DNA from: Opitutales bacterium
GTDB lineage: Bacteria > Verrucomicrobiota > Verrucomicrobiia > Opitutales > JABSRG01
NCBI GenBank assembly: GCA_028280845.1
Contig: JANQKZ010000055.1
Span: 1 to 49,648, forward strand
Direction: 5' to 3'
Length of the DNA stretch: 49,648 nt
Positions 1 to 35,006 of this stretch are shown here, piece after piece (positions within the stretch are counted from its first letter, which is position 1; each line of letters opens with the position of its first letter). Made by a program: the position numbers and the translations under genes. The notes beneath the pieces were generated by a model. The model searched no databases and was not told the origin of the DNA. It was given only the letters and a program-made list of their open reading frames with translations.

Positions 1-395
1 ATTCTTTCATGCCATTTCGCCAATTTTCCCTCTTCAAAATTTAGGGAAAATCGGATGTACACTTCATAGGCTACACTCACATCGTAGGTAATTGGTTCCC
101 GTATAATATGTCCTGAGGAATCCCGGTAACTGTGATATCGAGTAATAGGTCCCCCAGAACCAAATCGTTCACCTTGGTGGATTTCGTATACCCAACTCTC
201 TACCCCTTTCTCATCTGGCTCTAATTTTTTGTGTGGTTCCCCAAAGAGTTCTAGGACCTCTGTCATGGTGAGTCCGACTTTTAAATTATCTTTAAACTGC
301 CTTCCTGACACATCGGAAGACCTCGCCTCAGTTCTAGAACTAGTTGTTTCGCAACCTAAACTTAGGAGGAAAATCAAAATTAAGAAAATTTTCAA
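1..395 (-). CDS. Small lipoprotein with BamE/SmpA-like domain (partial, runs off the left edge)
   Basis: This reading frame starts at a TTG (complement of 393-395) and stays open to the window edge, about 131 codons. The N-terminus is MKIFLILIFLLSLGCETT if TTG is read as Met: a short hydrophobic signal ending in a lipobox (LSLGC), so an outer-membrane or periplasmic lipoprotein is predicted. The following segment, LKVGLTMTEVLELFGEPHK, resembles the G-M-T-x-x-x-V-x-x-x-x-G-x-P repeat of BamE/SmpA-OmlA domains, which recurs in many small envelope lipoproteins. The gene lies in the cassette array, only a few bases after a half attC site, and is AT-rich like its neighbours. The start is inferred from the signal peptide because no in-frame ATG lies before the lipobox. 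The real function is unknown. Confidence 0.6.
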   Translation of the reverse strand, partial: MKIFLILIFLLSLGCETTSSRTEARSSDVSGRQFKDNLKVGLTMTEVLELFGEPHKKLEPDEKGVESWVYEIHQGERFGSGGPITRYHSYRDSSGHIIREPITYDVSVAYEVYIRFSLNFEEGKLAKWHER

Positions 396-401
396 ATAGT
401 T

Positions 402-423
402 GGCCTCCACCTGCTTGTTATGT
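402..423 (-). repeat. Half attC site (R''-L'' arm only)
   Basis: Read on the minus strand this is ACATAAC followed by AAGCAGGTGGAGGC. The 7-mer ACATAAC (417-423) is the exact reverse complement of the GTTATGT that opens the same cassette at 1042-1048, as expected for the two ends of one integron cassette. The L'' arm AAGCAGGTGGAGGC is identical to that of the attC site at 3068-3115. The second half (L' and R') is missing: the lipoprotein gene starts directly behind it. The cassette junction therefore looks deleted and two cassettes look fused. Confidence 0.6.
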
Positions 424-431
424 AGATTTTT

Positions 432-980
432 TTAATTCTTTTTCGTCCGATTGAATAAGAGATTAGCGAATGCCTCGGCCTTCAGTATCAGAACTGCTGA
501 AACCCCAATAAAAATTGAGGTGTAAATTAAATTTTCCTTAGCATATGATGGAATTTTGGCCCCATAATATTCTTCGGGATATAATCCTGGATCTGGTGTA
601 TGAACTTGTTCTTTAAACCAATAGAAACCCTCAATGGCGAAGTCTGGAATTGAGGATATTAGAAACCAAATTCCAACCATGGTAATACCAATGTGTCCCA
701 TTTGGACTGAGTCGATACTTTGGGAAGGACTAATGTCTTTGTTTTCCCGGAATAAAAATTTGGAAAGTCTTCCTCCAAATAGGACTAAAAATAATCCAAC
801 AAGAATAGTGGGCAGCGAAAACAAAAGAGAGAAGGCAATATGAAGTAGAGAATTCCCTGGTCCAAAATTGCTGAACGATTGTGGTGTTCCGATGGAAATG
901 AAAACACCTGAAAAAAACTGAATTGTAATTATTACTCCAATAACTCTGAGAAAGACTTCTCCTAATCCTTGCTGACTCAT
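432..980 (-). CDS. Cassette-encoded integral membrane protein, unknown function
   Basis: A 182-residue protein with about four hydrophobic segments: near residues 10-30, 45-68, 95-112 and 150-168. It has a short acidic, proline-rich loop (around HTPDPGLYPEEYYG) before the last segment and a basic C-terminus. No known family was recognised. It is the only gene of a cassette bounded by complementary 7-mers at 1042-1048 and 417-423. The AT-rich composition matches the other cassettes and differs from the GC-rich genome to the right. An inner-membrane location is inferred. Confidence 0.6.
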   Translation of the reverse strand: MSQQGLGEVFLRVIGVIITIQFFSGVFISIGTPQSFSNFGPGNSLLHIAFSLLFSLPTILVGLFLVLFGGRLSKFLFRENKDISPSQSIDSVQMGHIGITMVGIWFLISSIPDFAIEGFYWFKEQVHTPDPGLYPEEYYGAKIPSYAKENLIYTSIFIGVSAVLILKAEAFANLLFNRTKKN

Positions 981-1041
981 AATTGAACAATTTTTTTCTT
1001 TAGCCTGCTTAATGTATCTCGGCTACCAACCATAGTAATAT

Positions 1042-1104
1042 ACATAACTTCTAAGTGAGGCGACGGGGGCGAGAGCCCTCGTTGCCTCGACTGCCTGGTT
1101 AGGC
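1042..1104 (-). repeat. attC recombination site of an integron cassette
   Basis: Read on the minus strand, the site opens with R'' GCCTAAC (1098-1104), which fits the RYYYAAC consensus, and closes with R' GTTATGT (1042-1048), close to GTTRRRY. Between them are an L''-like CGAGGCAACGAGGGC and an L'-like GTCGCCTCACTTAGAA, which can fold into an imperfect stem with the usual unpaired bases. The site is about 63 bp. It overlaps the stop codon region of the HIT gene, a common arrangement in cassettes. Confidence 0.75.
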
Positions 1105-1637
1105 TATTCATACTTTAGGTTCAAATGGGTTTGTATCTCTCGGATGATCTTTTCCTTTAGGGATTCTGTGACCGTTCGCCCTTTGTAAACGAAGGGCTCT
1201 CCGAACGTTTCATCGTTCCATTCTTCGCCTTCGAAATGCACTGGACTGGAGTACCTAGGAATGACGTGCAAATGAACGTGTGGGTTTGGTTTTCCGTCTT
1301 TGTATGGTGGATCTGGATTCGCAGAACGGTAGGCCCAGTTTCGCTGATAGTAAATATTGATTAGATCGGCTTTGAACGTTTCTTCCAATGCTACTTCCAA
1401 GTCGGAGATCAGGTCGATGAATTCACTCCTTTCATACTCATTGAATTCAGCCATTTTTCGGACGTGTCGTCTTGTAGCAACCAATACACTTGCAATGCTT
1501 GTTTGATCTGGGTGGAGGAGCACCTTGAACTGCTCAGTGAACGCAATAATGCGGTCGTCATTTTCTGGTTGAGTGCAAGTGATGCACTCCTTGTTCAGTC
1601 GCCGTTGCCTCCGCCGACTTGTTGGGTGTAATTTCAT
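1104..1637 (-). CDS. HIT-family nucleotide hydrolase or transferase
   Basis: The protein carries the histidine-triad motif near its C-terminal half, NPHVHLHVIPRY, which matches H-x-H-x-H and is the nucleophile region of HIT phosphoramidases and nucleotidyltransferases. A Cys pair (CITC) near residues 18-21 fits the zinc site of many HIT proteins. HIT enzymes hydrolyse or transfer AMP and related nucleotides in the cytoplasm. The open frame starts at ATG 1637, but codons 4-16 lie inside a degraded attC half site, so the N-terminus (HPTSRRRQRRLNKE) is recombination-site DNA. Either the protein has acquired this basic tail or translation begins later. An AAGGAG lies at the CxxC codons, with no good downstream in-frame start. 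The substrate is not predictable. Confidence 0.75.
   Translation of the reverse strand: MKLHPTSRRRQRRLNKECITCTQPENDDRIIAFTEQFKVLLHPDQTSIASVLVATRRHVRKMAEFNEYERSEFIDLISDLEVALEETFKADLINIYYQRNWAYRSANPDPPYKDGKPNPHVHLHVIPRYSSPVHFEGEEWNDETFGEPFVYKGRTVTESLKEKIIREIQTHLNLKYE
1590..1627 (-). repeat. Degraded attC half site inside the HIT reading frame
   Basis: On the minus strand ACCCAAC (1621-1627) is followed by AAGTCGGCGGAGGCAACGGC. The 7-mer is the exact reverse complement of GTTGGGT, the R' that opens this cassette at 2057-2063. The L''-like GGAGGCAACG is shared with the other sites. No matching L' and R' follow, so only half of the site is preserved. A separate short inverted repeat, GAGTGCA/TGCACTC, lies just beyond at 1571-1589. 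Confidence 0.55.
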
Positions 1638-1658
1638 TTTCGTTTAGAAATTGATGCA

Positions 1659-2039
1659 TCAGGGGACGAATACATTCTTGGTTTTTGGAAAACCCTTCAG
1701 ATTCGAAAAATTTCTCTTTCCAAGCTCTTTCTGAACCCAATCAACTTTGTCGTCATAACCAACTTTTAAGAATATAATTTTGATCCCTAATTGTTTAGCT
1801 TCTTGGATAACTGTTCTTAGCGTTTGCCGGGCGAATCCTTTTTTGTAGAACTCGGGTTGTGTATCAAGTCGCCAGATTGCTCCTGCGGGTAGCGGCGGAT
1901 GTCCGTAGGATCTTACCCATTCCGAAAGTTCAAGAGCGGCAAAAGAAAATTCTTTTAGCGTATTTTCTAATTCGATCTGATTTGTGGCTACATGCCAGAC
2001 CGCGGTAGATCTTCCGCTTTTTGTAATCCTTTCCTCCAT
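1659..2039 (-). CDS. GNAT-like acetyltransferase domain protein
   Basis: A 126-residue protein. The middle (AIWRLDTQPEFYKKGFA) followed by an amphipathic helix (RQTLRTVIQEAKQLG) and a hydrophobic strand (IKIIFLKVG) matches the layout of the acetyl-CoA binding core of GNAT N-acetyltransferases: a beta strand, a basic/glycine pyrophosphate loop, a helix, then a strand. The loop (KKGFAR) is less glycine-rich than the usual Q/RxxGxG/A. Substrate unknown. It is the first gene of a cassette that starts with GTTGGGT at 2057-2063. The start ATG at 2039 lies about 18 bases after the attC boundary. Cassette arrays often carry GNAT genes, which supports the call. Confidence 0.5.
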   Translation of the reverse strand: MEERITKSGRSTAVWHVATNQIELENTLKEFSFAALELSEWVRSYGHPPLPAGAIWRLDTQPEFYKKGFARQTLRTVIQEAKQLGIKIIFLKVGYDDKVDWVQKELGKRNFSNLKGFPKTKNVFVP

Positions 2040-2056
2040 ATGTATGATTTTGTCTC

Positions 2057-2150
2057 ACCCAACGACTTAGCTGAGGCGAAGACGACCGGCTGACCCTGCT
2101 GCTAAGCAGGCGGGGTGACTGGCGGCGTTGCCTCAGCCTGCTTGTTCGAT
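2057..2150 (-). repeat. attC recombination site with long terminal stem
   Basis: Read on the minus strand the site opens with ATCGAAC (2144-2150) and closes with GTTGGGT (2057-2063), which fits GTTRRRY. The L'' arm AAGCAGGCTGAGGCAACG and L' arm CGCCTCAGCTAAGTC pair around a variable centre that itself forms a stem (GCCTGCTTAGCAGCAGG region). The length is about 94 bp. ATCGAAC is the exact complement of the GTTCGAT that opens the same cassette at 3068-3074. Confidence 0.75.
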
Positions 2151-2647
2151 CATTTGTTTATTTTTGAATTTTTTCTATAGGTTTCCCAACTAAACTTGGT
2201 AGTTAAGCGTTCGTTACCAGTCGCTATAGCACCATAATCAATCAATTGCCATAGATCCTTTTGCTTTTTGAAGACAGTTACATAGTCGGCTCCGTAAAGT
2301 GGATCGCCGATATATAATTCTATAAATGCGTAACCATCCTCAGGAAAATCGACTTTATTTATGTCTACCCGCATCCACTTAGGTTCATCTTTGTATGAAA
2401 ATTCAGGAATCTTCTGGGATAGGTATTCTTTCAGTCTTTCAGAGTAGCTGTAACTGTCTACGGAAAATCTGTAAGCAGTATTGGGTGTCCTTAACTCATT
2501 GTAATGGTGCAGGACAGTCATAGCGACTAGGGTTTCTTCGTCTTTCATCCTGCCGTACTCGATCGATCTGGGATTGATGGTCGTGCAACCGGACCATAGA
2601 AGCATCCCCGGAAGTATGAATGAGAATAGTTTTAATTCTGTCCTCAA
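2150..2647 (-). CDS. Cassette-encoded lipoprotein, unknown function
   Basis: A 165-residue product starting at a TTG. The N-terminus has a short hydrophobic signal with a lipobox (LLWSGC, Cys about residue 21), so it is predicted to be a lipid-anchored envelope protein. The mature part is rich in Tyr and charged residues and ends in a basic tail. No domain was recognised. The start lies 12 bases after the stop of the membrane-protein gene in the same cassette, so the two are probably translated together. The cassette carries two genes, which is less usual than one. Confidence 0.55.
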   Translation of the reverse strand: MRTELKLFSFILPGMLLWSGCTTINPRSIEYGRMKDEETLVAMTVLHHYNELRTPNTAYRFSVDSYSYSERLKEYLSQKIPEFSYKDEPKWMRVDINKVDFPEDGYAFIELYIGDPLYGADYVTVFKKQKDLWQLIDYGAIATGNERLTTKFSWETYRKNSKINK

Positions 2648-2659
2648 TAATGTTAGTGG

Positions 2660-3058
2660 TTAGCTTTTTTGGTCCAACGGAAAGTTCTTTAAGAAAACAG
2701 GGGCCCAGATCCCAACTACAAGAATTGTCGAATAAATTATCATTCTTTGTGTGGCTGGGTTTTCGGCTCCTATGATGTAGATTTGCATGTATTGAGGCTG
2801 AGATGCTAAAGCCAGTCCAATAATGAAAACAATCAAGGCATGGTATCTGGTTTTCGCTTTTGCTAAACCATACGTTCTTAGACCAATGGATGCTATTAAT
2901 TCTATCCCGATGAATATGAGTGGCCCCCACTTTTGCTCCGCAGTATTTGGGCCTGTCGGAAATCCACCTGCTAATTGATACTGGATGAATACTAGTTGTA
3001 GTATTATTCCTAGCCACACAGCCCAAAACGATACGGTTGGAATTGGCTTATTGCTCAT
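2660..3058 (-). CDS. Cassette-encoded small membrane protein, unknown function
   Basis: A 132-residue protein with four predicted membrane segments, near residues 10-30, 45-65, 72-92 and 105-125, and a short lysine-containing C-terminus. No family recognised. The ATG at 3058 lies ten bases inside the cassette boundary (R' at 3068-3074), a typical position for a cassette ORF. It precedes the lipoprotein gene by 12 bases. A joint envelope role with that lipoprotein is possible but only inferred from proximity. Confidence 0.55.
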   Translation of the reverse strand: MSNKPIPTVSFWAVWLGIILQLVFIQYQLAGGFPTGPNTAEQKWGPLIFIGIELIASIGLRTYGLAKAKTRYHALIVFIIGLALASQPQYMQIYIIGAENPATQRMIIYSTILVVGIWAPVFLKNFPLDQKS

Positions 3059-3067
3059 TTTATTGTG

Positions 3068-3115
3068 ATCGAACGACCTAGCTGAGGCGGCGTTGCCTCC
3101 ACCTGCTTGCTAGGT
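3068..3115 (-). repeat. Short attC-like site at the right end of the array
   Basis: On the minus strand the site reads ACCTAGC (3109-3115), then AAGCAGGTGGAGGCAACG, CCGCCTCAGCTAGGTC and GTTCGAT (3068-3074). The arms GAGGC...GCCTC pair with unpaired bases as in attC stems. It is only 48 bp long, with almost no terminal variable part. R'' departs from RYYYAAC at one base. It is the last recognisable site; nothing to its right looks like a cassette or an attI. Confidence 0.65.
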
Positions 3116-3461
3116 GTTTCAATCAATGTCCATAATAAGATAAAACTGTAGTTACTTCTCCGATTTCCCAATTTCTTCCAGATGAGCTCGCTTTCCATAT
3201 GCCATAGCCGTAACTTGCACGAAGTGCCTGGGGCAACCGGATCTTGGGGAGACGGGTTGCCTATGAAGGAGATGTGGACGGGTGCGCGATTCGGAGTTGA
3301 GCACGCTACCGCCATTCGGAGCGGGTCCGTTTTTCGAGAGGTGTAGGGAGATCGGGGGTAGACAACCATCCGCCTGACTTTACGCGGTCAGGATAAGCCA
3401 TCGGATGGTGAATGGGAAGCCCTTTTCTAACGCATCCCTGTATAGGGATATGTCCCCGGCC
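3116..3461. other. Intergenic transition from cassette array to GC-rich genome
   Basis: No convincing gene is seen. An open frame on the minus strand (3055-3369) crosses the attC site and lacks any protein-like features, so it was not called. The composition changes from AT-rich to GC-rich near 3190. The only clear structure is the nested hairpin at 3366-3408. Confidence 0.5.
3366..3408 (-). terminator. Nested hairpin downstream of the propeller gene
   Basis: CCATCCG (3366-3372) pairs with CGGATGG (3402-3408). Inside it CCTGAC (3373-3378) pairs with GTCAGG (3387-3392) around an eight-base loop, leaving a nine-base bulge. It lies about 55 bases past the stop of the minus-strand gene ending at 3462. 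There is no clear U-tract, so it may be a processing or partial termination structure. Confidence 0.4.
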
Positions 3462-4829
3462 CTAATCGAGGAAGGTAGTGGCCGGGGGGAGGCGGATGAG
3501 CTGAATTTCGTAGATGACGTCGCGGGTTTCGGCGGGGAGGGCATCTCCCCGGGACTCCTGGATGGCCCGCATGCGTGCGGGATCTACGGTTTCGACCCAG
3601 GCGACGGAATAGATATGGCCGTCGGGGGCGATTTCGATGCTTTCGGTAAAGAAGACGCGCCGGTCATCGGGCCCGAGGACGGGGCCGTGGTCGACGGTTT
3701 CTGCGGTGTCGATGGCGTGGGTGATGAGGTGGACGTTGGCCTTGGTCGGGCGCCGACCGTCCCGCGGCAAGGCCGGCCCGTGGGCCAGGTAGAAGAGCGT
3801 GTTGTCGGGCCCGAGGGTGAAGCCCAGCTGGGTCCGCAAGGGATTGCGCAGGCCCTGGGGAACTCCTTCCGGGCGGAGGTTGGCGATGGAGCGGAGGCGT
3901 CCTTCGCTAGGGTCATACTCAAAGAGTTGGGAGCTGCCTCCGTGGAGTCCCCAGAAACTGGAGGTTGCCGGATTCCAGGTGATGGTGCGCCAGTTGCCCC
4001 AGAAGTAGTGAGGGACGGCTTCGAGCTTGAAATCGGCCTCGGCCGTAGTGAGGACGGATTTGAGCGAAAGGGGGGTGAAGCTCAGGGGGCGTTGCTTGGT
4101 GGCATCAAATTCCCAGATGCGGCCCCGGTTGGTGGAGCCATAGAGGCGTCCATCGGGCGCCACGGCGAGCTTGCGGCAGATGAATTCCCAGTCCTCGGCG
4201 TAGTGCCCCCATTCCCCCCGGGTCTGGGTGGCTCCGTATTGCTGGAAATTGCCGGTCCGGACTTCGTAGGTGAAGAGCAGGCCCGTGGGCCAGGTCAGGC
4301 CGTAGAGGCGCTGACGCTGGGTATCCATGGTCATGGTGATGATTCCCTCATTTTTGAGGGGGACCTGGGCCAGGCTTTTGAACTCTCCGCTCTCCAAGTC
4401 GTAACGCACGAAATGTCCCCCCGGGTAGGGATCCCTGCCATCATCCGGGATGAGGTTGGGGAGGGTGCCTTCGTAGGAGCTGGTGTGGGTGGCGAAGTAG
4501 AGGGCGCCCTCCGATTCGAAGAGGGGCGTGTGCACTTTTCCATGGGGGATCATCCGGTCGATGTCTTCCCCCAGGATGTCATTCATTTGAGCGATCTCCT
4601 CGATCTCCTCCGATTCGGGATCGAAGCGGTAGAAGCGAGCGGAAACCTGCTCATGGTGGGTGTTGACGGTGAAGTAGAGGTAGCCGTCGGAGGCGGCAGT
4701 CAGGCTGTGGTAATTGGAATCCCCTTCGAGGAATCCCGGGTCAAAGAGCTCGGCGGGAATGGTGGAGGCGGCGGTGAGCGGCAGGTACCCGAGTAAGGCG
4801 AAGAGCAGGAGAATGCAGCGCGTTTTCAT
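3462..4829 (-). CDS. Exported beta-propeller protein
   Basis: A 455-residue protein with a Sec signal peptide (MKTRCILLLFALLGYLPLTAAS). The rest is built from repeats of the form D-G-x-L/I-Y followed by F-x-x-D-P/A, for example DGYLYFTVN, DGRLYGSTN and DGHIYSVAW. These are typical blades of a WD40/NHL-like beta-propeller, probably six or seven blades. No catalytic motif was recognised. Propellers of this kind occur beside carbohydrate genes and may bind or cleave oligosaccharides. The gene follows the SSS symporter gene by 19 bases on the same strand, so the two form an operon. The role in periplasmic sugar handling is inferred from context only. Confidence 0.65.
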   Translation of the reverse strand: MKTRCILLLFALLGYLPLTAASTIPAELFDPGFLEGDSNYHSLTAASDGYLYFTVNTHHEQVSARFYRFDPESEEIEEIAQMNDILGEDIDRMIPHGKVHTPLFESEGALYFATHTSSYEGTLPNLIPDDGRDPYPGGHFVRYDLESGEFKSLAQVPLKNEGIITMTMDTQRQRLYGLTWPTGLLFTYEVRTGNFQQYGATQTRGEWGHYAEDWEFICRKLAVAPDGRLYGSTNRGRIWEFDATKQRPLSFTPLSLKSVLTTAEADFKLEAVPHYFWGNWRTITWNPATSSFWGLHGGSSQLFEYDPSEGRLRSIANLRPEGVPQGLRNPLRTQLGFTLGPDNTLFYLAHGPALPRDGRRPTKANVHLITHAIDTAETVDHGPVLGPDDRRVFFTESIEIAPDGHIYSVAWVETVDPARMRAIQESRGDALPAETRDVIYEIQLIRLPPATTFLD

Positions 4830-4848: not shown

Positions 4849-6552
4849 TTAACGGACGAGGAAATAGACCAGGGCGATGATGAAGGCGACGAGGGCCCAG
4901 CCGGCGAGAAAGCCCAGCATGGCCCGTCGGGAGGGCCGGGGAATTTCGAAGTTGGAATTGGGGAAGAGGGTTTGATTGGGCCGGGGTTCGACTCCGGCGG
5001 GGAGGGTGCAGGGCACGTCAGGGTTGGGCTCGGCCGTCAGCACCGGGGTATGCAGCAGCATGTAATACTGTTCGAGCTTCGCTTCCGATGTAGGCCGGGT
5101 AAACAGGCTGACAAGGATCCCGGTGACCAGACCGGCGGAGAGGTAAAACACCATCTGCCAGGGCAGGTAGATTTCCGGTTCACCGGAAATCTCTACTACG
5201 AAGCGGGCCGCATGTGCCCAGGAGAGTTGATCGAGGAAGGTGATAAAGAAGGCCTGGGTGGTCAGCCACCAGGTCGCGAGGGCGACGAGGGTGGAGGCCC
5301 AGGCGGCAGCGGCGGTGGCGCGGCGCCAGAAGAGGCCGAGCCAGAAGGCGATCCCCATCATGGGGGCAATCTTCCACAGGATTTCGAGCCCCTGGATGAC
5401 ATCCTCGAGCCAGTAGGCATAGCCCACGCCGAGCCCGACGACGCCGACGGCGGCAATTCGGGTCACGAGCAGGTAATGCCGGGTGGACTGGCCGGGGCGT
5501 AGCTTTTTATAGATGTTCTCCGAGAAGAGTCCGGACCCGGCGATCATGAAGGAGTCGCAGGAGCTCATGACCGAGGCGAGGAGGGTCGCGATGAAGAGGC
5601 CGAGGAGGCCGGGCCAGAGTTGGGTAAGAAAGTCATTCGCGAGGAGGCCATAGAGGTGGTCCGGGTGGACCTCGTTCCCCGCGAAATAGGCCACGCCGGC
5701 CAGACCGGTGAGCGCCCAGGCGACGGTGCAGAAGCGCTTGGTAAAGGACCCCACCATGAATCCGAACTGGCCCTCCCGCTCTGTGCGACCGGCTGCGGTG
5801 CTGGCCAGAATATGGGGCTGGGTCACGATGCCGACCAGTCCGTTGAAGGCGATGACTGCGATATAAAAGGCTCCGATTTCGGCGGGCGCGACGAGGGTGA
5901 ACATCTCCGGGTCATTGATGGTGGCCTTGAGCCCGGAAAGGCCGCCCACCGCCTGGAGGACAAATGGCAGGAGCAGGAAGGAGAACACAATGGTCAGGAT
6001 GCCCTGGATGAAGTCGGTGATGATGGCGCCTGCGAGGCCGCCCGCCGTCCCATAGGCGACAAACAGGAGGGTCATGACAATCATGGCCAGCTCGGGGTCG
6101 ATGGCTCCCCGGGTGGCCCCGGTGATGACCGCGCCGGATCCCTTCAGCATGAGGCCGATGGAGGATGCCATGAAGGCGATGCTGATGACGGAGTAGAGGA
6201 CGGCCACGCCGCGGGTATAGCGCAGTTCAAAGATATCCGCCGTCGTGAGGGCCCGGAAGCGCCGCATCATGGGAGCAATCAGCCAGTAAAACGGGGTGCC
6301 AAAGAGGTAGAGCCATTGATACCAGATCCCGGAAATTCCGTTGGTAAACGATTTGGACGCCACACTGACGGCCTGGTCGGAATGGGTGCCCGACCCGAAG
6401 GCGTGCATGGTCATCATCCATTTGCCAAAACGGCGCGGCATGATGAAGTCCCCCATTTCCTTGACGCGCCGGGCGGCCCACGCCCCGATGAAGGTGACCC
6501 CGATCAGGTAGACAATGATGACAAGGAGGTTGACGATGCCGAGACCAAGCAT
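4849..6552 (-). CDS. Sodium:solute symporter, SSS family
   Basis: A 567-residue protein with about 13-14 membrane segments, the usual size for the SSS family. The N-terminal GxxxxGxxxxRR start (GAWAARRVKEMGDFIMPRR), the GSGTHSDQAVSVAS stretch after the first segment, GGLAGAIITDFIQG and SSCDSFMIAGSGLFSENIY are characteristic of SSS transporters, which couple Na+ influx to uptake of sugars, sugar acids or amino acids. The C-terminus has LFPNSNFEI.RPSRR before a last segment, a feature shared with the symporter at 46131-48239. It is the first gene of an operon with the propeller gene and is divergent from the sulfatase gene. A candidate operator lies at 6617-6629. Substrate unknown; a sugar or uronate is inferred. 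Confidence 0.9.
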   Translation of the reverse strand: MLGLGIVNLLVIIVYLIGVTFIGAWAARRVKEMGDFIMPRRFGKWMMTMHAFGSGTHSDQAVSVASKSFTNGISGIWYQWLYLFGTPFYWLIAPMMRRFRALTTADIFELRYTRGVAVLYSVISIAFMASSIGLMLKGSGAVITGATRGAIDPELAMIVMTLLFVAYGTAGGLAGAIITDFIQGILTIVFSFLLLPFVLQAVGGLSGLKATINDPEMFTLVAPAEIGAFYIAVIAFNGLVGIVTQPHILASTAAGRTEREGQFGFMVGSFTKRFCTVAWALTGLAGVAYFAGNEVHPDHLYGLLANDFLTQLWPGLLGLFIATLLASVMSSCDSFMIAGSGLFSENIYKKLRPGQSTRHYLLVTRIAAVGVVGLGVGYAYWLEDVIQGLEILWKIAPMMGIAFWLGLFWRRATAAAAWASTLVALATWWLTTQAFFITFLDQLSWAHAARFVVEISGEPEIYLPWQMVFYLSAGLVTGILVSLFTRPTSEAKLEQYYMLLHTPVLTAEPNPDVPCTLPAGVEPRPNQTLFPNSNFEIPRPSRRAMLGFLAGWALVAFIIALVYFLVR

Positions 6553-6678: not shown

Positions 6679-8244
6679 ATGCTTCGGATACGCTTCCTTT
6701 TGCCCGTCCTGGTGTTCGTTCCCGGCTTGAGTTGTCTCATGGCGGAGGCTAGGCCGAAAGCTGAGCCGATGGATATCCTCTTCATCATTGTGGATGACCT
6801 CAATGACTGGGTGGGGCCCCTGGGCGGACATCCGCAGGTGGAGACGCCACACCTGGACGAGCTGGCGACCGATTCCTTCGTTTTTACCAATGCGCATACG
6901 CCTTCCCCCGCCTGCCAGCCCGCCCGGTATGCCTTGTATTCCGGGTTACATCCGGTGTCCAGCGGGTGGTATGGCAACTATTTTGAGACGGGGGTTCATG
7001 AAATGGCCGAGCGCCTGCAATCCGTGACGCATTTGCCGGCCCGGTTACAGGCAGCCGGCTACCACACTGCAGGAGGCGGAAAAGTGTATCACGCCGCGGT
7101 CAACGACTACTGGCCTTTTGATCAGTGGGACGAAGTCATGCCGGTATGGGAGGTGCCCGAAGCGTGGTGGCAACGCATCCCAACCCGGTATGATAAGCTC
7201 TACCACCCGTTTCCCGAGGATGGGGGGGCGATCTGGGCGGAGCTCGGAATCCGGGCGGGGTATTCCCTGACGGGAGGCCCAATCGAACGGGATACGCTGC
7301 CGGATGGCCTGATGTTTGACGAAATGATCACCGCGTGGGCGCTGGACCAGATGGATCTGCCCAGGTCCCAACCTCAATTTCTGGCCGTGGGGTATGTGCG
7401 TCCCCATGTTCCCTATACCGTTCCTCCTGAATATTTTGATGCCTACCCCCTGGATGACCTGTATATTCCTGACAGTCCTGGCGGGGTGCTGGATGATGTC
7501 CCGATTCTGGGCAAGGCCATGACCTATGGGTTAGCTACCGGAGGAGATGAGGCGGTGGTTCGCCGCCTGGGTGAAAGGTATCGTCGCGAGCTGATTCAAT
7601 CCTATCTAGCCTGTATCACCTTTGTGGATACCGAGATCGGGAAGCTTCTGGATGGGCTCAAAGCGGCAGGACGCTGGGAGGACACCATCATCATCGTGAC
7701 TTCGGACCACGGGCAGAATTTTGGAGAAAAGCGGAACTGGCGGAAGATGTGTCTTTGGGAAGAGAGCACACGGGTACCGCTGCTGATTCGGGTTCCGGGG
7801 CAGGGTGGAGCCGGGCGGCAGATTGGCGAAGCCGTGAGCCTGCTTGACTTGTATCCCACCCTGATGGACCTGGCGGGGATCGAGGCGCCGGATCACCTGG
7901 ACGGGGTGTCCCTTGTCCCCCTGATGCGCGACCCAACTGCAGAGCGCGGCCGGCCGGTATTGATTTCCTGGCAGGCTGGGAACCATGCCCTGCGTAGCCG
8001 CGACTGGCGCTATATTCGGTATCGGGATGGGTCGGAGGAACTCTACGACCACCGGAGTGATCCTGAGGAACAGACCAACCTGGTAGGACTTGCCGAGGTG
8101 GAGGCCATTCTTGAATCCATGCGGGCCTCCCTGCCGAAGGAAACCGCTCCCCCGGTGTCCCCCACGGCACGGGATCATGATTTTGTGGATCGCGTGTTAT
8201 TGCGATGGGCCGAGGACGGGGTGCCGGACTGGGTGGAGGAGTGA
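6679..8244 (+). CDS. Exported sulfatase of the iduronate-2-sulfatase type
   Basis: Using the ATG at 6679 (AGGA eight bases upstream; signal peptide MLRIRFLLPVLVFVPGLSCLMA follows) the protein has 521 residues. Metal ligands IIVDDLND (Asp39-Asp40) are followed by the formylglycine motif ACQPAR, with Cys79 in the C-x-P-x-R pattern that an anaerobic or FGE-type maturase converts to the catalytic aldehyde. TSDHGQNFGEK provides the second metal pair and a Lys. The C-terminal half (LRSRDWRYIRYRDGSEELYDH and DPEEQTNL) is typical of sulfatases that remove 2-O-sulfate from uronic-acid sugars. It probably acts in the periplasm on a sulfated glycan. No maturase gene is in the window. It is divergent from the symporter operon. 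Confidence 0.9.
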   Translation: MLRIRFLLPVLVFVPGLSCLMAEARPKAEPMDILFIIVDDLNDWVGPLGGHPQVETPHLDELATDSFVFTNAHTPSPACQPARYALYSGLHPVSSGWYGNYFETGVHEMAERLQSVTHLPARLQAAGYHTAGGGKVYHAAVNDYWPFDQWDEVMPVWEVPEAWWQRIPTRYDKLYHPFPEDGGAIWAELGIRAGYSLTGGPIERDTLPDGLMFDEMITAWALDQMDLPRSQPQFLAVGYVRPHVPYTVPPEYFDAYPLDDLYIPDSPGGVLDDVPILGKAMTYGLATGGDEAVVRRLGERYRRELIQSYLACITFVDTEIGKLLDGLKAAGRWEDTIIIVTSDHGQNFGEKRNWRKMCLWEESTRVPLLIRVPGQGGAGRQIGEAVSLLDLYPTLMDLAGIEAPDHLDGVSLVPLMRDPTAERGRPVLISWQAGNHALRSRDWRYIRYRDGSEELYDHRSDPEEQTNLVGLAEVEAILESMRASLPKETAPPVSPTARDHDFVDRVLLRWAEDGVPDWVEE

Positions 8245-25948: not shown

Positions 25949-28240
25949 TTACTCTTCGTATTGGATGTATACCTTTTCCCATTCCTGGTCGTACTCGTTC
26001 AGGAGGACTTTACCGGTGTCAGCGTCAAGCAAGACAGTATTGGGTCCTTCGGGCAGGTCCAGGGAAATGGTGGTCCCGTTGCGTAGACGAATATCCCTGA
26101 GGCCTCCGGTCAGGGTATGCATGACAAGGATTCCATCTCCCCCGTAGAAGAAGGCGTCCGGCTCGCCGTAGATGTGAGCCCCGGCACGTTCAAGCAGCAA
26201 CCGAAGCGGTTGGGTTTGTTGACTGGGCAGGCTGACAAACCAGGCCTGGTGATCCTTCATCGTTTTTTGGGCAATAGCCACCGCACCGCCTTCGGTGAAG
26301 TGAGCTATGGCATCGGCCTCCGGGTCGTTCACGGCGAAAACGGGACTAAAGGGAGCGTCGCCTACCTGGTAGAGGACATCCTCCCGGCCGGAAAGGGGAA
26401 GGCTGATTTCCGGAGCCTCATCGAACCGGGCGGTTTCCAATTTAAACCCGGTCAGCTGTTCCACCAGGGTAAGCCCGGACTCTCCCTGGTCTTCGTCAAT
26501 GAATCCAGGGGCATAGAACCAGAAGATCCGGCGACCATCGGCGGCCACTCTGTCCTGGATATAGGCGCGCTCTTCCTGATCGAGCAGGTAGGTGTTATTA
26601 AAGACCACGACCCGATATTGCTCCAGGTCGACCTTGGGCAGGTCGTCCAGATGAATCGGGTCAAAGATGATCCCGCTGCGGAAGGCAGCCAGCGTGTTGT
26701 GGTCAATCAGCGTATGACTTACCGGGTCTGAATCGGTTAGGCTGGCTGTGTAGTAAAAGCTGTCGGTGTCGTAGACAAAGAGGACATCGGCCTCGGTCCG
26801 GTAGGGCTCCTCCAGGGCCTGTTGCCGGAAGAGCCGGTGCATCTGCTCGACTTGTCGCATGACGACCGGCTGGTCCCAGTTTCCCTGGCTTCCGGCGTGT
26901 TTGGGGCGATAACCGTCCAGATCGACCCCGGCTACATTAAAATCGTAAAACCAGAGCCCCATGCCCTTGGTGAAACTGAAACTCACATTGCGCCGGATGT
27001 CGGCTACACTGCGCTGGACGGCGGTGTGGTAGTGGTCCATGCCATATTTCATGACCGGTAATTTGGGCTCCACGTCCATTTCATCCAGCCACAGTTTGTT
27101 GTTCAGGCGGACGGAGGTGATCAGGCTCCGGGAGCGGTAAGGATCCCCCAGGTCGATGGATTCGGGGCCGTAGGCCTGAGGTCCGCTCAGGTAGTCGATG
27201 ACATCGGATTCGAGGATTCTGCGGAGTTGGAGATGTCCACCCGGGGCCTGCCGGCCAAAGACGGAAAAGTAGTAGCCATAAAAGGTCCCGGTAATGATGG
27301 GTCGTGGCCAATGCGTTTTCACCAATCCGGCGAAATGGATGATGTTGTCCGCCACGACCTGGTGCATGCACTCGAAGTAATCGATCACCTTTCGCTCGGT
27401 TTTCAAATCGCGAATGAGCCCGTCGGTGGCCCGCTCATCCATTCCGGGAGCGGTGACCGTTTCGAACCTAATGTCCGGTTGGTTCCAAGCGGCGCGGAGG
27501 GCGTCCTCGGTCTGATATTTTTCCCGCAGCCAGGATTGAAAGGCCTGGGTCATGGGTGCACTAACATCGGGCTCGTTGGCGAAAAAGCCCCAATTATGCC
27601 ACTCTCCGTAGACCCCATTGGCCACCTGGATGCCGATCAGGGCATTGGCCTCAGGGGTTTGCGAAAAGGTTTCCAGGAATTGAGTAAACTTCTCGGATAT
27701 TTTCGCTTTCCACTTTTTGGAAGCCATGCTCACCCGCCGAACCGGTCCATTATCATGCTCGATGATCCGGAGCAGGGCGTAAGCCTGTTCTTCCTTGTAA
27801 TCGGTGTCGGCATATTTGACCCATTCCTCCGGGTGTTGGTGCAACCACCAACGGGGAGCCCGTAAATGAAAGCGAAAGATGACCGCGGCATCCGGGCAGG
27901 CCTGGAGTGCACCGGCGATCTGTTTGCGAGGGATCGTCAAATCCCACCCGTCTTCCTCGGTCCAGATATGTTCGAGGGAGACATCAAACTGAAAGAGATG
28001 GATGCTGCTCCGGCAAAAGTTCCTGATGTTGTGCTGGGGCAGCTCCTCCCACGTCCAGCGACCGGAAGGGGTGTCGGTAAGCGCGTAGATCATGGGGTAA
28101 TGGGGCTCCCCGTCGATCATGATCATGGGGCGACCCTGCACCATTTCCACATGGCTGGATTTAGGGGATGGAACCGCAGAAGCGGAGTTGAAAGATAGCA
28201 AAGACATCGTGAGTAAGAGGAGAAGGGGTGGGTATCCCAT
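25949..28240 (-). CDS. Exported GH42-like glycoside hydrolase
   Basis: The ATG at 28240 gives a Sec signal peptide (GYPPLLLLLTMSLLSFNSAS) and a 763-residue protein; an upstream TTG at 28291 is less likely. The layout is a (beta/alpha)8 barrel to about residue 450, then a Rossmann-like trimerisation domain (VLFVYDTDSFYY, VVFNNTYLLDQEE) and a C-terminal beta domain, as in GH42 beta-galactosidases. The candidate acid/base is Glu213 in NGVYGEWHNWGF, where GH42 normally has Asn-Glu. The candidate nucleophile is Glu387 in LWLDEMDVE. The family assignment is therefore approximate, and it may belong to a related clan-A family. Probably removes a terminal hexose in the periplasm. Confidence 0.75.
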   Translation of the reverse strand: MGYPPLLLLLTMSLLSFNSASAVPSPKSSHVEMVQGRPMIMIDGEPHYPMIYALTDTPSGRWTWEELPQHNIRNFCRSSIHLFQFDVSLEHIWTEEDGWDLTIPRKQIAGALQACPDAAVIFRFHLRAPRWWLHQHPEEWVKYADTDYKEEQAYALLRIIEHDNGPVRRVSMASKKWKAKISEKFTQFLETFSQTPEANALIGIQVANGVYGEWHNWGFFANEPDVSAPMTQAFQSWLREKYQTEDALRAAWNQPDIRFETVTAPGMDERATDGLIRDLKTERKVIDYFECMHQVVADNIIHFAGLVKTHWPRPIITGTFYGYYFSVFGRQAPGGHLQLRRILESDVIDYLSGPQAYGPESIDLGDPYRSRSLITSVRLNNKLWLDEMDVEPKLPVMKYGMDHYHTAVQRSVADIRRNVSFSFTKGMGLWFYDFNVAGVDLDGYRPKHAGSQGNWDQPVVMRQVEQMHRLFRQQALEEPYRTEADVLFVYDTDSFYYTASLTDSDPVSHTLIDHNTLAAFRSGIIFDPIHLDDLPKVDLEQYRVVVFNNTYLLDQEERAYIQDRVAADGRRIFWFYAPGFIDEDQGESGLTLVEQLTGFKLETARFDEAPEISLPLSGREDVLYQVGDAPFSPVFAVNDPEADAIAHFTEGGAVAIAQKTMKDHQAWFVSLPSQQTQPLRLLLERAGAHIYGEPDAFFYGGDGILVMHTLTGGLRDIRLRNGTTISLDLPEGPNTVLLDADTGKVLLNEYDQEWEKVYIQYEE

Positions 28241-28296
28241 ATGCTCCACTTTAAAAAATGCCGCGGGGTTTTCAGGATTTTTCTGAAGCAACCGGA

Positions 28297-28309
28297 GTTT
28301 ACGGTAAGC
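28297..28309. promoter_or_regulatory. Candidate operator GTTTAC-G-GTAAGC (second exact copy)
   Basis: The same 13-mer as at 15665-15677, with two further identical bases on its right. It lies in the divergent promoter between the GH42-like and glycosidase operons, 57 bases upstream of the former and 71 upstream of the latter. Confidence 0.55.
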
Positions 28310-28379
28310 CGCTGGGAGAGGTTGGGCTCGAGCTCAAGAGCAGTAGATTTCTCGTATCCTGAATCTAGTTCTTTAGATC

Positions 28380-29480
28380 ATGCACTCAATGAACCAGCGA
28401 CGCTTTACGATTGGTTTGCTTTTCCCCCTGGCTCTCTTTTCCGCTGAAATGGACTTTGATTTATCGCATCCTCCTGCTCCTGACCAAGTATCCCGGTGGT
28501 CGGAAAAATTCCGGAACTGGCATTATTATCCGGATCATGTGATTCCGGCTAAGCCAGAGATCGAGGGGGTGGAGGGAGTCTACATGACTGATGTTCCCAC
28601 GGTCTTTCAACTGGAAGGAGATCCCAAATATTATATGAGCTTTGTTGGATTCGACGACCGGGGTTACCAATCATTTGTCGCTGAAAGCACCGACTTGCTG
28701 AATTGGTCCAACATCCAGCTTGCGCTGGGATTCGGGGAGCTGGGGAGTTTTGATTACGGAGGGGTGGTCCTGGGTGCCTTCCTCTACGAGGACTATGGCC
28801 TGAAATCCCCACGGCTTTTGAAACAGCATGAAGGGGACTATGTGTCGCTCTATCTTGGCTTTCCCCGGCAGGGAGGCTATGAATTGCGGCCTGGGGGGCA
28901 GGGAGTTGCCGTCAGCCGGGATGCGATCCTCTGGGAGCGGAAGTTGCAGGATCCCATCTTATCGATTTTTCAGGAGGACGTGAAAGAATGGGAAAAAGAC
29001 TGTATCTATCTTCCCTGGCTGGTGGAGCATGAGGGCCGTTACTACAATTTCTACAATGCGGCCAACGGGAAGCATGAACAAATGGGACTCGCCACCTCTG
29101 AGGACCTGTGGTCATGGACACGGTTTCCGGATAACCCGGTCATCGCGAATGGTCCTGAAGCGAGTTACCATCAAGTCTTTTGTGCAGACGGCAAAGTTTT
29201 CCGGGATGAGGACCACTGGGTAATGATCTTCTTTGGGGTGGGCCGGGGCGGCGCACACATCATGGCCGCATATTCCTATGATTTGGTCCAATGGACTGTA
29301 GACCCGGAGCCTCTCTACAAGGCGAAGGGTCATCCAAACGGGCTGGATTCGCAATATGCCCACAAGGTATCGATCCTCTGGAACCCGGAGAATGAGACCT
29401 TTTATATGTTTTATAATGCGGTGGGAGATAAAGGTCGAGGAATTGGGCTGCTCACCAGTAAACCACTGGCAAGGCCATGA
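28380..29480 (+). CDS. Five-bladed-propeller glycosidase-like protein (GH43/GH32 fold)
   Basis: A 366-residue protein with a signal-like N-terminus (RRFTIGLLFPLALFSAEM). Repeated blade motifs such as TDLLNWSN, LYLGFPRQ, YYNFYNAANG, ATSEDLWSWTRF and YSYDLVQWTVDP are the S/T-x-D-x-x-x-W pattern of glycosidases in the GH32/43/68/130 superfamily. Possible acidic catalytic residues are in MTDVPTVFQ and EWEKDCIYLPW, but the family cannot be fixed by eye. Its stop overlaps the next start by four bases (ATGA), so it is translationally coupled to the TIM-barrel gene. It probably acts outside the cytoplasm. Confidence 0.7.
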   Translation: MHSMNQRRFTIGLLFPLALFSAEMDFDLSHPPAPDQVSRWSEKFRNWHYYPDHVIPAKPEIEGVEGVYMTDVPTVFQLEGDPKYYMSFVGFDDRGYQSFVAESTDLLNWSNIQLALGFGELGSFDYGGVVLGAFLYEDYGLKSPRLLKQHEGDYVSLYLGFPRQGGYELRPGGQGVAVSRDAILWERKLQDPILSIFQEDVKEWEKDCIYLPWLVEHEGRYYNFYNAANGKHEQMGLATSEDLWSWTRFPDNPVIANGPEASYHQVFCADGKVFRDEDHWVMIFFGVGRGGAHIMAAYSYDLVQWTVDPEPLYKAKGHPNGLDSQYAHKVSILWNPENETFYMFYNAVGDKGRGIGLLTSKPLARP

Positions 29481-30262
29481 CATCGGGGAACTTCAAAACC
29501 GGCCTGGTCTCCATCAGCTTTCGGGAGGAGTCCGTTGAGACTTTAATTGAAGCCGTTCGGCAAGCCGGACTGGAAGGAGTTGAGTGGGGCGGGGATGTCC
29601 ATGTTCCCCATGGTAACCTGAGCCGGGCCGAGGAGGTGAGGCGGTGGACCGAGGAAGCCGGACTGCAGGTGTCCGCCTATGGCTCATATTACAAGTTTGA
29701 GGATTTGGCCGGGGGCGGCGGACCCGAGCCAAGCGCAGTGCTCGACACGGCTGAAGCGCTCGGGGCTAGCATGATACGGCTGTGGCCGGGGGCTGTCGGA
29801 ACTGTGGACGCCTCGGCCGAATGGCGGCAGGTCCTGGCTGATCGCACTCGGGAAATAGCGGAAGCTGCGGTCCTACGCGGCCTCGAGCTGGGGTTCGAAT
29901 TCCATGACCATTCCCTGACGGACACACCGGAATCGACCCTGTCTTTACTGCAACTGATCGGGCACCCTGCCGTCAGCACGTTCTGGCAACCCTACTTGCA
30001 AACCAGCCCTGAAGAACGGATGGCGGGCCTGGAAATCGTGCTGGACCGGGTCACGAATATCCATGTGAACTATTTCGATCAAAACCCCTGGCCCGACAAC
30101 CTGCCCCTTCAGTCGGGCACGGCCGAGTGGGTCGAATACCTGAATCTGTTAAAGGAAACCGGCAGGGACCATTGGCTGACCATTGAACACGTCCGGGGTC
30201 ACCGCCTGGACCAGTTCGCCGACGATGCCCGGGTGCTGAAATCCTGGGTGGAAACCCGTTGA
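29477..30262 (+). CDS. Sugar phosphate isomerase/epimerase-like TIM barrel
   Basis: A 261-residue AP-endonuclease-2 type TIM barrel. The opening KTGLVSISFREESVETLIEA with GLEGVEWGGDVHVPHG, the central LGASMIRLWPGAVG, the metal Glu in LGFEFHDHSL and a His-containing NIHVNYF, followed by a final Glu in WLTIEHVRG, match xylose-isomerase-like epimerases. Cytoplasmic. It overlaps the glycosidase gene by four bases and is followed after 75 bases by an NHL-propeller gene. Probably it interconverts the sugar released by the upstream glycosidase; the exact substrate is unknown. Confidence 0.75.
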   Translation: MTSGNFKTGLVSISFREESVETLIEAVRQAGLEGVEWGGDVHVPHGNLSRAEEVRRWTEEAGLQVSAYGSYYKFEDLAGGGGPEPSAVLDTAEALGASMIRLWPGAVGTVDASAEWRQVLADRTREIAEAAVLRGLELGFEFHDHSLTDTPESTLSLLQLIGHPAVSTFWQPYLQTSPEERMAGLEIVLDRVTNIHVNYFDQNPWPDNLPLQSGTAEWVEYLNLLKETGRDHWLTIEHVRGHRLDQFADDARVLKSWVETR

Positions 30263-30337
30263 ACCGTCCGGATTCTCCTGATTTATCTGCTTAGGCAAAG
30301 CGCTGATCCTTCTTAATCTACCGACTCCTTCATCACT

Positions 30338-31252
30338 ATGAATCACACCTACAAATGGATTGAGGACTGGGTGACCATACCCGAGTCCCCCCTCTCAACC
30401 AGCAACGGTCGTACCCACGGCATCGTCGAATCGAAAGCCGGCTTGATCTATCTCTTTCATCAGGCTGTTCCTTCAGTCGTGGTCTACGATGCAGATGGTG
30501 TTTTCCAGAAATCCTGGGGAAATTTCCCCGGGGCGCATGGAATGACCCTGGTCGAAGAGCATGGGGTGGAATACCTTTGGCTCACGGATCAGGATACCCA
30601 GAAAGTCGTGAAGACGACGCTGGATGGGGAGGAACTCCTGGAGCTCCACCGCCCGGACCACCCTCTCTATGCGGAGAAACCCTATGTTCCGACCTGGGTT
30701 GCGGTGAATGAGGAGCGCCATGGCGGCAATGGGGATCTCTGGGTGACGGATGGGTATGGGTCCCATCTCATCCACCGATATGACAAACAGGGGAATTACC
30801 TGACCTCCATCGATGGGACGGAAGGCCCGGCCGGATTATTCGAATGCCCGCATGGGATCTGGATTGGGCCGCGCCAGGGAGCGCAGCAGCTTTATATCGC
30901 GGACCGAACCAACAAACGTATCCAGGTTTATGATACCGAGGGCAATTTTCTTCGCGTTTTTGGAAATGACTTCCTGACGAGCCCGGACATGTTCTTTCCC
31001 TGCGGAGAATACCTGATCATACCCGAGCTGGAGGCGCGGCTCACCATACTGGACGGGAATGACCAGCCGGTTGCCCGGTTTGGTGTAAATGACGAAGTCT
31101 CGGCCCGGGAAGGCTGGCCCAACAATCGCGACCTGGTGGAGGAAGGAAAATTTAACAGCCCCCATGGAGCCTGTGCCGATGCAAAGGGAAACCTGTTTGT
31201 CGTGGAATGGATCACTGGCGGACGCGTGACCAAGTTGGAAAAACAGGAGTGA
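30338..31252 (+). CDS. NHL-repeat six-bladed beta-propeller protein
   Basis: A 304-residue protein without a signal peptide. NHL-type blades are visible: VVYDADGVFQKSWGNFPGAHG, LWLTDQDTQKVVKTTLDGE, LWVTDGYGSHLIHRYDKQG, LYIADRTNKRIQVYDTEGNF and HGACADAKGNLFVVEW. The pattern GNLFVVEW and the His/Asp residues at blade edges recall peptidylglycine lyase or gluconolactonase-like propellers, so a sugar lactonase or lyase role is possible but unproven. It is last in the operon after the TIM-barrel gene. Confidence 0.75.
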   Translation: MNHTYKWIEDWVTIPESPLSTSNGRTHGIVESKAGLIYLFHQAVPSVVVYDADGVFQKSWGNFPGAHGMTLVEEHGVEYLWLTDQDTQKVVKTTLDGEELLELHRPDHPLYAEKPYVPTWVAVNEERHGGNGDLWVTDGYGSHLIHRYDKQGNYLTSIDGTEGPAGLFECPHGIWIGPRQGAQQLYIADRTNKRIQVYDTEGNFLRVFGNDFLTSPDMFFPCGEYLIIPELEARLTILDGNDQPVARFGVNDEVSAREGWPNNRDLVEEGKFNSPHGACADAKGNLFVVEWITGGRVTKLEKQE

Positions 31253-31559
31253 AGGTCTTGGGATTTCACCTAGGTCAATCGTAGCGGCCTGCTTTCGGAT
31301 TAACCTAAGAGGCTGCTTGCTAAAAAATGAAAATGACCTTTCACGGCTATTTGCCAGGTAAGGGCAAGGCTGCACGCCCTGAGCGGTGTAGATGGGGACT
31401 ACCGGACTGACTGGAACTTAGGTAAAAAGACTCTAGCGCGCATGTTAAATGAACAGGAGGAAACGGAGTGAATGGAGGGTTGGTAGTTTTTCGTGCTTGG
31501 TTTTTCGTTTTTGAGGTCGTTTTTGAGGTCCATTTCTTTGTGTAGCGACAGTTCTCCCT

Positions 31560-31800
31560 TCCCCCATCTTGTATCATAGCGCTGGTGCGATCGTGGAAGA
31601 GCTACAGTTGCTTGTTGATGCGGTCGTCTCTCCCCTCTAGCAATACAACGGGTCGTAGCGTTTTTCAGGTCGGCTTCGATATTGGTGATGGCGAACCGAA
31701 GATTATCCCCTTGGGTCCATGCTCGGCCTTGTAGAGAGCTCAACGCAATCCCTTCCAGCTTTTGGCGTAGGCCAAGCCCTGGAAGAGTCTCTGTTGGGTT
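31560..31800 (-). pseudogene. Decayed IS1380-family transposase fragment
   Basis: On the minus strand one frame reads WTQGDNLRFAITNI, then about 15 codons on RCIARGER. Shifted by one base it continues GRDDRINKQL, stop, LFHDRTSAMI. Together this follows the C-terminal signature of IS1380 transposases (NPRFVVTNL, then YCARGxxENRIKEQ and LFADRTS). A frameshift and at least one stop make it non-functional, and only this part remains. The family match is from memory of the motif, not a search. Confidence 0.55.
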
Positions 31801-31856
31801 CCGGTCTGCTCGGTATGATTGATATCTGGTACCTTTAGGGGCTGAAGGCATGGGCA

Positions 31857-31900
31857 GGTTTACGGTCAGATGGCCGGATAGATAGATTTTTCCGTAAACC
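31857..31900. promoter_or_regulatory. Inverted pair of operator-like sites upstream of the epimerase gene
   Basis: GGTTTACGG (31857-31865) and CCGTAAACC (31892-31900) are perfect inverted copies separated by 26 bases. The right-hand site extended to 13 bases, TTTTTC-C-GTAAAC (31887-31899), fits the shared palindrome with one mismatch. It lies 65 bases upstream of the start at 31964. Confidence 0.45.
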
Positions 31901-31963
31901 CTCAACCGGCCTTGGCCTCAGTCACTAAGCATGCGTAGGGTTTGGAGTCGTTTATAACCTGTT

Positions 31964-33007
31964 ATGGCTATCGATTCTGAACTTCTTCTCCCTCTGGTTC
32001 CCGAGGAGGTTGAGCAATTTCTCTCTCAGCCTGAGTCGGCTACGCTTTCCACGCTTCAGGGTTTGCCAGGGGACATCATTGTATTGGGCGCTGGAGGGAA
32101 GATGGGGCTGCACCTGTGTCTCATGTTGAAACAGGCCGTCGACCAGCTCGGCCAGAACAACACCATTTACGCGGCCTCCCGATTCCAGTCCCTGAACAGT
32201 GACCAGGCCTACCTTGAGGCGGGAATTGAGGTGTTAAAGGGCGATTTCCGGAACGAGGTGTTCATCAATCAGCTGCCTCGGTGCGAAACCGTTTTTTATC
32301 TCGTGGGAGCTAAGTTTGGCACCACGGACAGACCCGAACTGCTTGAGGAGATTAATGTCAAGGTAGCGGGGCGTTTGGGTGAATACTACCGGGACTCCCA
32401 TATCGTGGCCTTTTCTACGGGCTGCGTGTATTCCTACACCAACCCGGAATACGGTGGATCTACCGAGGCGAGCCCCACTGACCCGGTGGGGGATTATGCT
32501 CAGTCTTGTCTGGGTCGTGAGGTTCAGTTTGCCACCCTTTCCCGGAAGTATGGGACGCCGGTGGCCCTTATCCGGCTCAACTATTCCACGGAATTTCGCT
32601 ATGGCGTGCTGGTGGATATCGGCACGCGGGTGCTGCAGGGAGAACCCGTAGACCTGACCATGGGGTACCTGAACCTGATCTGGCAACCCGATGCCTTAAA
32701 CCATATCATTCGTTGCCTCGACCTGGCTGGGTCGCCGGCGGTTCCGATTAATATTACCGGTCCCGATATTTTAAGTGTCCGGGATTTGGCCGAACGGTTC
32801 GGCCAGGTCTTTGGAACGACACCCCGGTTTCAGGGGGAACCGGCGGAGTCCATGTGGCTCAGCGATGCTTCCCACTCACACCGCATGTTTGGCAAGCCAG
32901 TTACCGACCTGGAGGCAATGATTCAATGGACGGCAGCCTGGTTACTCAAGGTGGGCCAAACCCATGGAAAACCGACCGGCTTCGAAAAGCGGGACGGGAA
33001 ATTTTGA
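31964..33007 (+). CDS. NAD(P)-dependent epimerase/dehydratase-fold protein lacking the catalytic lysine
   Basis: A 347-residue extended-SDR protein. The cofactor loop IIVLGAGGKMGLHL is near residue 40, preceded by a short N-terminal extension. STGCVYSYTN fits the Ser/Thr strand, but the active-site motif YxxxK reads YAQSCLGRE: Cys occupies the Lys position. The C-terminal half (LNLIWQPDALNHIIRCLDLA) is normal for UDP-sugar epimerase relatives. The missing Lys suggests loss of classical redox chemistry or a binding role. It is followed 19 bases later by the DapA-like gene. Confidence 0.8.
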   Translation: MAIDSELLLPLVPEEVEQFLSQPESATLSTLQGLPGDIIVLGAGGKMGLHLCLMLKQAVDQLGQNNTIYAASRFQSLNSDQAYLEAGIEVLKGDFRNEVFINQLPRCETVFYLVGAKFGTTDRPELLEEINVKVAGRLGEYYRDSHIVAFSTGCVYSYTNPEYGGSTEASPTDPVGDYAQSCLGREVQFATLSRKYGTPVALIRLNYSTEFRYGVLVDIGTRVLQGEPVDLTMGYLNLIWQPDALNHIIRCLDLAGSPAVPINITGPDILSVRDLAERFGQVFGTTPRFQGEPAESMWLSDASHSHRMFGKPVTDLEAMIQWTAAWLLKVGQTHGKPTGFEKRDGKF

Positions 33008-33026
33008 TGTGGAATCACGACAAATC

Positions 33027-34094: not shown

Positions 34095-34095
34095 T

Positions 34096-34124
34096 AAACC
34101 GGCCGCATACCATGCGGCCCTCCC
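34096..34124. repeat. 29-bp hairpin repeat, copy 2
   Basis: AAACC, then GGCCGCAT (34101-34108), loop ACC, ATGCGGCC (34112-34119), then CTCCC. Against copy 1 (8412-8440), 25 of 29 bases are identical, and the four differences are two paired, compensating stem changes. It lies two bases past the DapA-like stop, between convergent genes. Confidence 0.6.
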
Positions 34125-34163
34125 GGGTTGTTTCAGTTGGCCGCTTTTTCAATCGTGTGAGAT

Positions 34164-34940: not shown

Positions 34941-35006
34941 GGATGTGGCTTTATAGTTTATGGCGGAGTCTCGCGCCAAGCCCCCCTTTGAACAGTCCAA
35001 AGCATG

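Follow-up and report, generated by a model that had tools for sequence, protein, structure and literature searches.

Cassette clusters lacking an integrase (CALINs; Cury et al., IntegronFinder) are an established class of chromosomal element. Several origins have been proposed for these common clusters, namely integrase loss, off-target insertion and rearrangement; loss of a recognisable intI is one of those given in PMC8618304. In experimental evolution of Vibrio cholerae with a highly recombinogenic array, the integrase was seen to become inactivated, which prevents cassette loss (PMC11023631). In class 1 integrons, cassettes may be fused through partial loss of an attC site, as in blaGES-1/aacA4, and in the fused cassette studied both genes were transcribed and excised together (PMC4670013). 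Integrons have been recorded in Verrucomicrobiota and in many other phyla (PMC8618304).

The window analysed here is the whole of contig C31 (49,648 nt) of an Opitutales assembly (62 contigs, 97.7% complete). The array at its left end is a further CALIN, with at least two tandem attC sites in one orientation, on the chromosome and with no intI near. It differs from the average CALIN in its number of sites (about 16 versus almost 6; PMC9024848), in being split between contigs, and in having several half or degenerate sites. With the superintegron type of sedentary chromosomal integron in Vibrio it shares the single orientation, the mostly unknown genes, and one cassette in which a small upstream ORF overlaps a ParE toxin gene. 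On the other hand, it is much smaller, no intI was found, the attC lengths are heterogeneous (about 47 to 147 nt), and attI and Pc were not recognised. The likeness to the class 1 fused cassettes lies in the union of two ORFs where the attC of the first cassette is partly lost. Here, however, the array is chromosomal and integrase-less, only the R''-L'' 5' half of the site is left, and the next gene follows almost immediately.

We consider it probable that this is a large, decaying chromosomal CALIN that remained when the integrase/attI end was lost, and that the window contains its integrase-proximal end.

Extent and content of the array

The features of the window, including the first genes of the right chromosomal flank, were as follows.

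1..410, minus strand: lipoprotein-like cassette ORF, open at the contig end and completed through the overlap with C56
405..423, minus strand: attC site 5 (half), consisting of R'' ACATAAC, the spacer and part of L''; 5' arm seen, 3' arm absent
432..980, minus strand: cassette ORF, 182 aa, membrane-like, no family
1042..1104, minus strand: attC site 4, complete, 63 nt, R'' GCCTAAC to R' GTTATGT; R1 28.3 bits, E 4.9e-6; training site
1104..1637, minus strand: HIT-family ORF, frame reading through half attC site 3; Pfam HIT E 5.1e-9
1603..1627, minus strand: attC site 3 (half), consisting of R'' ACCCAAC, the spacer and L'', without L' and R'; 5' arm with 20/24 consensus matches, 3' arm absent
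1659..2039, minus strand: GNAT acetyltransferase-like cassette ORF, 126 aa; Pfam Acetyltransf_1 E 2.4e-5
2057..2150, minus strand: attC site 2, complete, 94 nt, R'' ATCGAAC to R' GTTGGGT; E 3.6e-11 in the genome search; training site
2150..2647, minus strand: second ORF in the cassette of the 132-aa ORF, 165 aa, lipoprotein-like, no family
2660..3058, minus strand: cassette ORF, 132 aa, membrane-like, no family
3068..3115, minus strand: attC site 1, complete, 48 nt, R'' ACCTAGC to R' GTTCGAT; R1 67 bits, E 6.9e-18; training site
3123..3260, minus strand: putative C-terminal part of a first cassette that is truncated at its 5' end, ...SYGYGIWKASSSGRNWEIGEVTTVLSYYGH and stop, no start codon; the frame ends 7 nt before the R'' box
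3462..4829, minus strand: kelch/strictosidine-synthase-like gene, right chromosomal flank
4849..6552, minus strand: SSF sodium:solute symporter gene, right chromosomal flank; Pfam SSF E 9.7e-28

The preliminary description had reported three exact 7-mer pairs, and all were found in place: GTTCGAT/ATCGAAC (3068 and 2144), GTTGGGT/ACCCAAC (2057 and 1621) and GTTATGT/ACATAAC (1042 and 417). On the minus strand, each pair consists of R', where a cassette starts, and R'' in the attC belonging to that cassette. The count of three cassettes stood as far as the pairs were concerned, but only half of an attC, lacking L' and R', is present at 1627 and at 423, and the HIT-family gene at 1104-1637, between the second and third cassettes, had been overlooked.

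The array, placed at 1-3115 in that description, is real but does not end at base 1. C31:1-99 is identical to C56:36093-36191, the last 99 bases of C56, and this 99-mer was found nowhere else in the assembly. This unique overlap indicated that the array continues into C56, and de Bruijn assemblies are expected to show such a pattern between adjacent contigs. The earlier option of a 'broken distal end of a chromosomal integron' was not supported: the contig break is an overlap of the assembly, 99 bp long, and lies within the array.

Once joined, the array extends from C31:3115 to about C56:27,080; it covers about 12 kb and has about 16 attC-like sites, which share one strand. A pattern search had placed more attC on C56, on the same strand as those of C31, and the C56 part (about 27,080-36,191) has about 11 further attC-like sites. 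By arm scoring, the C31 sites were at 3115, 2150, 1627, 1104 and 423 (minus strand), and the C56 sites at 36020, 35322, 34568, 33877, 33049, about 31930, 30758, 29552, 28658, 27865 and 27127. The site near 31930 is divergent and was called by eye; it and the site at 30758 are badly degenerate. The GC content of the array is mostly 0.36-0.47, versus about 0.6 in its surroundings; one cassette, near C56:32,000-33,000, is high in GC.

The cargo named by Pfam consisted of a GNAT acetyltransferase, a HIT protein, a ParE toxin, a glyoxalase-like protein, an alpha/beta hydrolase, a nucleotidyltransferase, a HAD hydrolase and an INT_rpt protein; the remaining cassette products had no Pfam name. The INT_rpt (integrase repeat unit) match was to a cassette-borne repeat protein of 332 aa (E 2.6e-6; 12827-13825 of L023, on G000:C56). 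In the ParE-type toxin cassette (16570-17036 of L023), a 61-aa upstream ORF without a Pfam match overlaps the toxin start. The small ORF is likely the antitoxin, and its pair with ParE is probably intact. A defence role of the HIT cassette was considered and rejected, as the ThsC-like match was weak (E 1e-4) and there were no partner genes.

Support for the attC sites

The pairing of R' with R'', which the preliminary description had put forward as an integron cassette property, held across the joined array. Seven of the 10 consecutive pairs matched at all four variable positions; the permutation mean was 0.79 full matches, and none of 20,000 permutations reached 7. The arm motifs also exceeded the Markov-shuffled control, with 3 versus 0.0 per window for the 3' arm (score at least 14) and 7 versus 0.9 for the 5' arm (score at least 17).

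An attC covariance model of 48 positions was built from nine sites of the array. This search, suggested in the preliminary description, gave matches in the window and in C56, including the C56 sites 34568, 35322 and 27127, which were outside the training set. The L boxes were paired in 86% of cells in the model sites. For the nine sequences used in training, covariation counts did not exceed those of shuffles, and support for the attC sites therefore rests on pairing, model scores and independence. A strict scan for R/L complementarity recovered site 2 only, and arm scoring and the covariance model were used instead. The Rfam scan of the window gave no match, nor did the exact attC pattern match outside this genome in the genome_contigs collection.

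Folding of the bottom strands, also suggested earlier, bore out some of the sites. The folds of site 2 (z -3.76; 0/200 shuffles as good) and site 4 (z -5.58; better than all 200 shuffles) stood out, whereas that of site 1 (z -1.71) was suggestive only and those of several C56 sites were not significant.

Applied to G125, an order-level relative, this model found 14 attC sites in a row on one strand beside an integron integrase, the nearest about 4.7 kb from the IntI gene. The degeneracy of some C56 sites would speak for chance repeats that resemble attC and are unrelated to integrons, but such an origin is contradicted by the R'/R'' pairing statistics, by the model E-values and by this array next to a genuine IntI. 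We give that explanation a negligible probability.

The model also detected orphan attC sites at four further loci of the same genome. The scores of these non-training sites were 45.1 bits on C11, 41.3 bits on C14 and 24.5 bits on C55; a second C14 site (16.9 bits) and the site on C62 (E 0.015) were weaker.

Three of these contigs showed other features. On C55, two TIR-effector-like ORFs (PADLOC E 2e-9 and 2e-6) lie around a lone attC-like site (ORFs and site in 5965-7918 of L075, G000:C55, with the site at 7162-7203). On C62, the weak attC and a half attC right before an ORF start occur in a low-GC patch (7651-8260 of L024, G000:C62), a small cassette island of its own. On C14, a tandem repeated motif (VTARLRLGSGVALHFLRPAEAGRKWVEARGGSEAFE...) is located upstream of an XerC-like gene (2534-3244 of L002, G000:C14) and is possibly a non-coding repeat.

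The integrase-proximal end and the chromosomal locus

The preliminary description had noted no integrase in 3116-4829. Profile searches of the genome with Phage_integrase, TIGR02249 and NF011946 found no integron integrase there or elsewhere in the assembly. No protein exceeded the TIGR02249 or NF011946 cut-off, and the top matches were Xer-type. Two Xer-type proteins were present: one on C8, above the XerD cut-off, and one on C14, matching XerC best and below its cut-off. The IntI-specific insertion, present in the IntI of three relatives, is missing from them. A tblastn search with the IntI of three relatives gave nothing in the array contigs. The assembly also contains two short unrelated recombinases. 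The tyrosine recombinases of C38 and C55 were rejected as the integrase: they are short, match integrase_gron poorly or not at all, and have an IntI insertion that is lacking or could not be recognised.

Within the order, integrase genes are frequent, with 41 such genomes among the 177 sampled. They include that of G001, the closest relative and the only one from the same family, whose IntI lies near the end of a 24,880-base contig; no convincing attC was found in the contig stretch examined around it.

The proximal end of the array is inside the window, without intI. Before the first attC, the start-less frame at 3123..3260 ends in ...VLSYYGH and a stop, and the GC content shifts there from about 0.43 to about 0.6. 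We interpreted this frame as the remnant of the first cassette, marking the broken integrase-proximal end. The 5' part of the cassette, with the expected attI/intI side, looks to be gone, so that the truncated cassette abuts the chromosome. Neither an intI remnant nor attI was recognised at this end, and we therefore infer integrase loss from absence.

Could this be a complete integron whose integrase simply escaped the assembly, through fragmentation or incompleteness? With 62 contigs and 97.7% completeness, an intI elsewhere in the genome is conceivable, and draft assemblies overestimate CALINs (PMC9024848). However, the array is bridged by the unique 99-bp overlap, chromosomal genes stand at both ends, and the integrase-proximal side runs on for 46 kb of the window, which makes such an artefact very improbable. 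The CALIN option of the preliminary description gained support, as both array ends border chromosomal genes and the proximal end lies in the window without intI.

To the left, on C56, the array is followed by genes for an AGE-type epimerase, nagB and nagA. The array thus sits between the AGE-type epimerase gene (C56) and the kelch-like and SSF symporter genes (C31). Homologs of the kelch-like protein, 54-57% identical, were found in six order-level relatives, and the flank-gene scan also gave one 55%-identical MAG contig, labelled Rhodothermia. The kelch gene adjoins nagB in all four loci where nagB was found (G031, G322, G098 and the Rhodothermia MAG contig), with SSF, AGE and nagA nearby as far as the contigs reach. 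The order in G031 and G322 is AGE-nagA-nagB, then kelch-SSF facing them; the contigs of G098 and the Rhodothermia MAG are short and show only parts of it.

No attC was found at these four loci. In G146, G223 and G312, the kelch homolog occurs without the other flank genes nearby and also without attC. The positions of nagA and nagB relative to AGE in this genome differ from those in the relatives. The flank order in the relatives supports the C31/C56 join and the array as an addition to the locus, present here and absent from the loci of relatives, which were compared from outside the genus. The gene order is accordingly not fixed among relatives. The preliminary description had held that a fixed order, or an attC model without matches, would count against its reading, and neither was observed.

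Alternatively, the array may never have had its own integrase. A cassette would have been seeded off-target between AGE and kelch by an integrase elsewhere (on the chromosome or a lost plasmid), and others added later by attC x attC recombination. The relatives, with flank genes and no attC, are in line with this, and insertion off-target is among the proposed CALIN origins (PMC8618304). The further attC loci on C11, C14, C55 and C62 fit off-target insertion by an integrase acting in trans equally well, which counts against integrase loss. On the other hand, the truncated cassette at the proximal end is not expected from clean insertion at a secondary site, and the array exceeds the CALIN mean of almost 6 attC (PMC9024848), off-target loci presumably being small. 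We consider off-target seeding unlikely and prefer loss of the integrase end.

Half sites and decay of the array

Under integrase loss, the cassettes would have been gathered by an integron integrase recombining folded attC bottom strands, and the intI/attI end would then have been lost by a deletion cutting into the first cassette. Without an integrase the array would be frozen, and its decay would consist of point changes in the R boxes and deletions of attC 3' halves, the latter fusing neighbours into permanent two-gene units. Without a Pc promoter, expression of the cassettes would have to rely on local promoters.

The 3' half (L'/R') is gone from at least two attC sites (1627 and 423), which joins neighbouring cassettes into two fused units (GNAT with HIT, and the 182-aa ORF with the lipoprotein). 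Half site 3 passes directly into the HIT ORF, which has no cassette start of its own because the 3' half of the site was deleted. The HIT frame opens at an ATG upstream of the half site, but it aligns with the structure 2oik of the HIT family only from residue 14 on; the native coding probably starts near this residue. Half site 5 is likewise fused to the lipoprotein-like ORF that follows.

These half sites would fit decay following integrase loss. In G125, which has an integrase, all 14 attC sites printed keep both arms, a comparison that is biased because the model requires both arms. At C31:1627, C31:423 and C62:13200, the start of the next gene comes almost directly after the half site. 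This might reflect a recurrent specific event, by recombination or hairpin-driven deletion within attC that ends at the next gene's start, although we find this distinctly doubtful. If true, cassette arrays that have lost their integrase would become permanent operons through such events.

In this genome, a large array with a visibly broken proximal end occurs together with further attC loci and with attC sites at differing stages of decay, and the corresponding loci of relatives are uninterrupted. The case adds to the integron record of an order in which an integrase was found in 41 of 177 sampled genomes.
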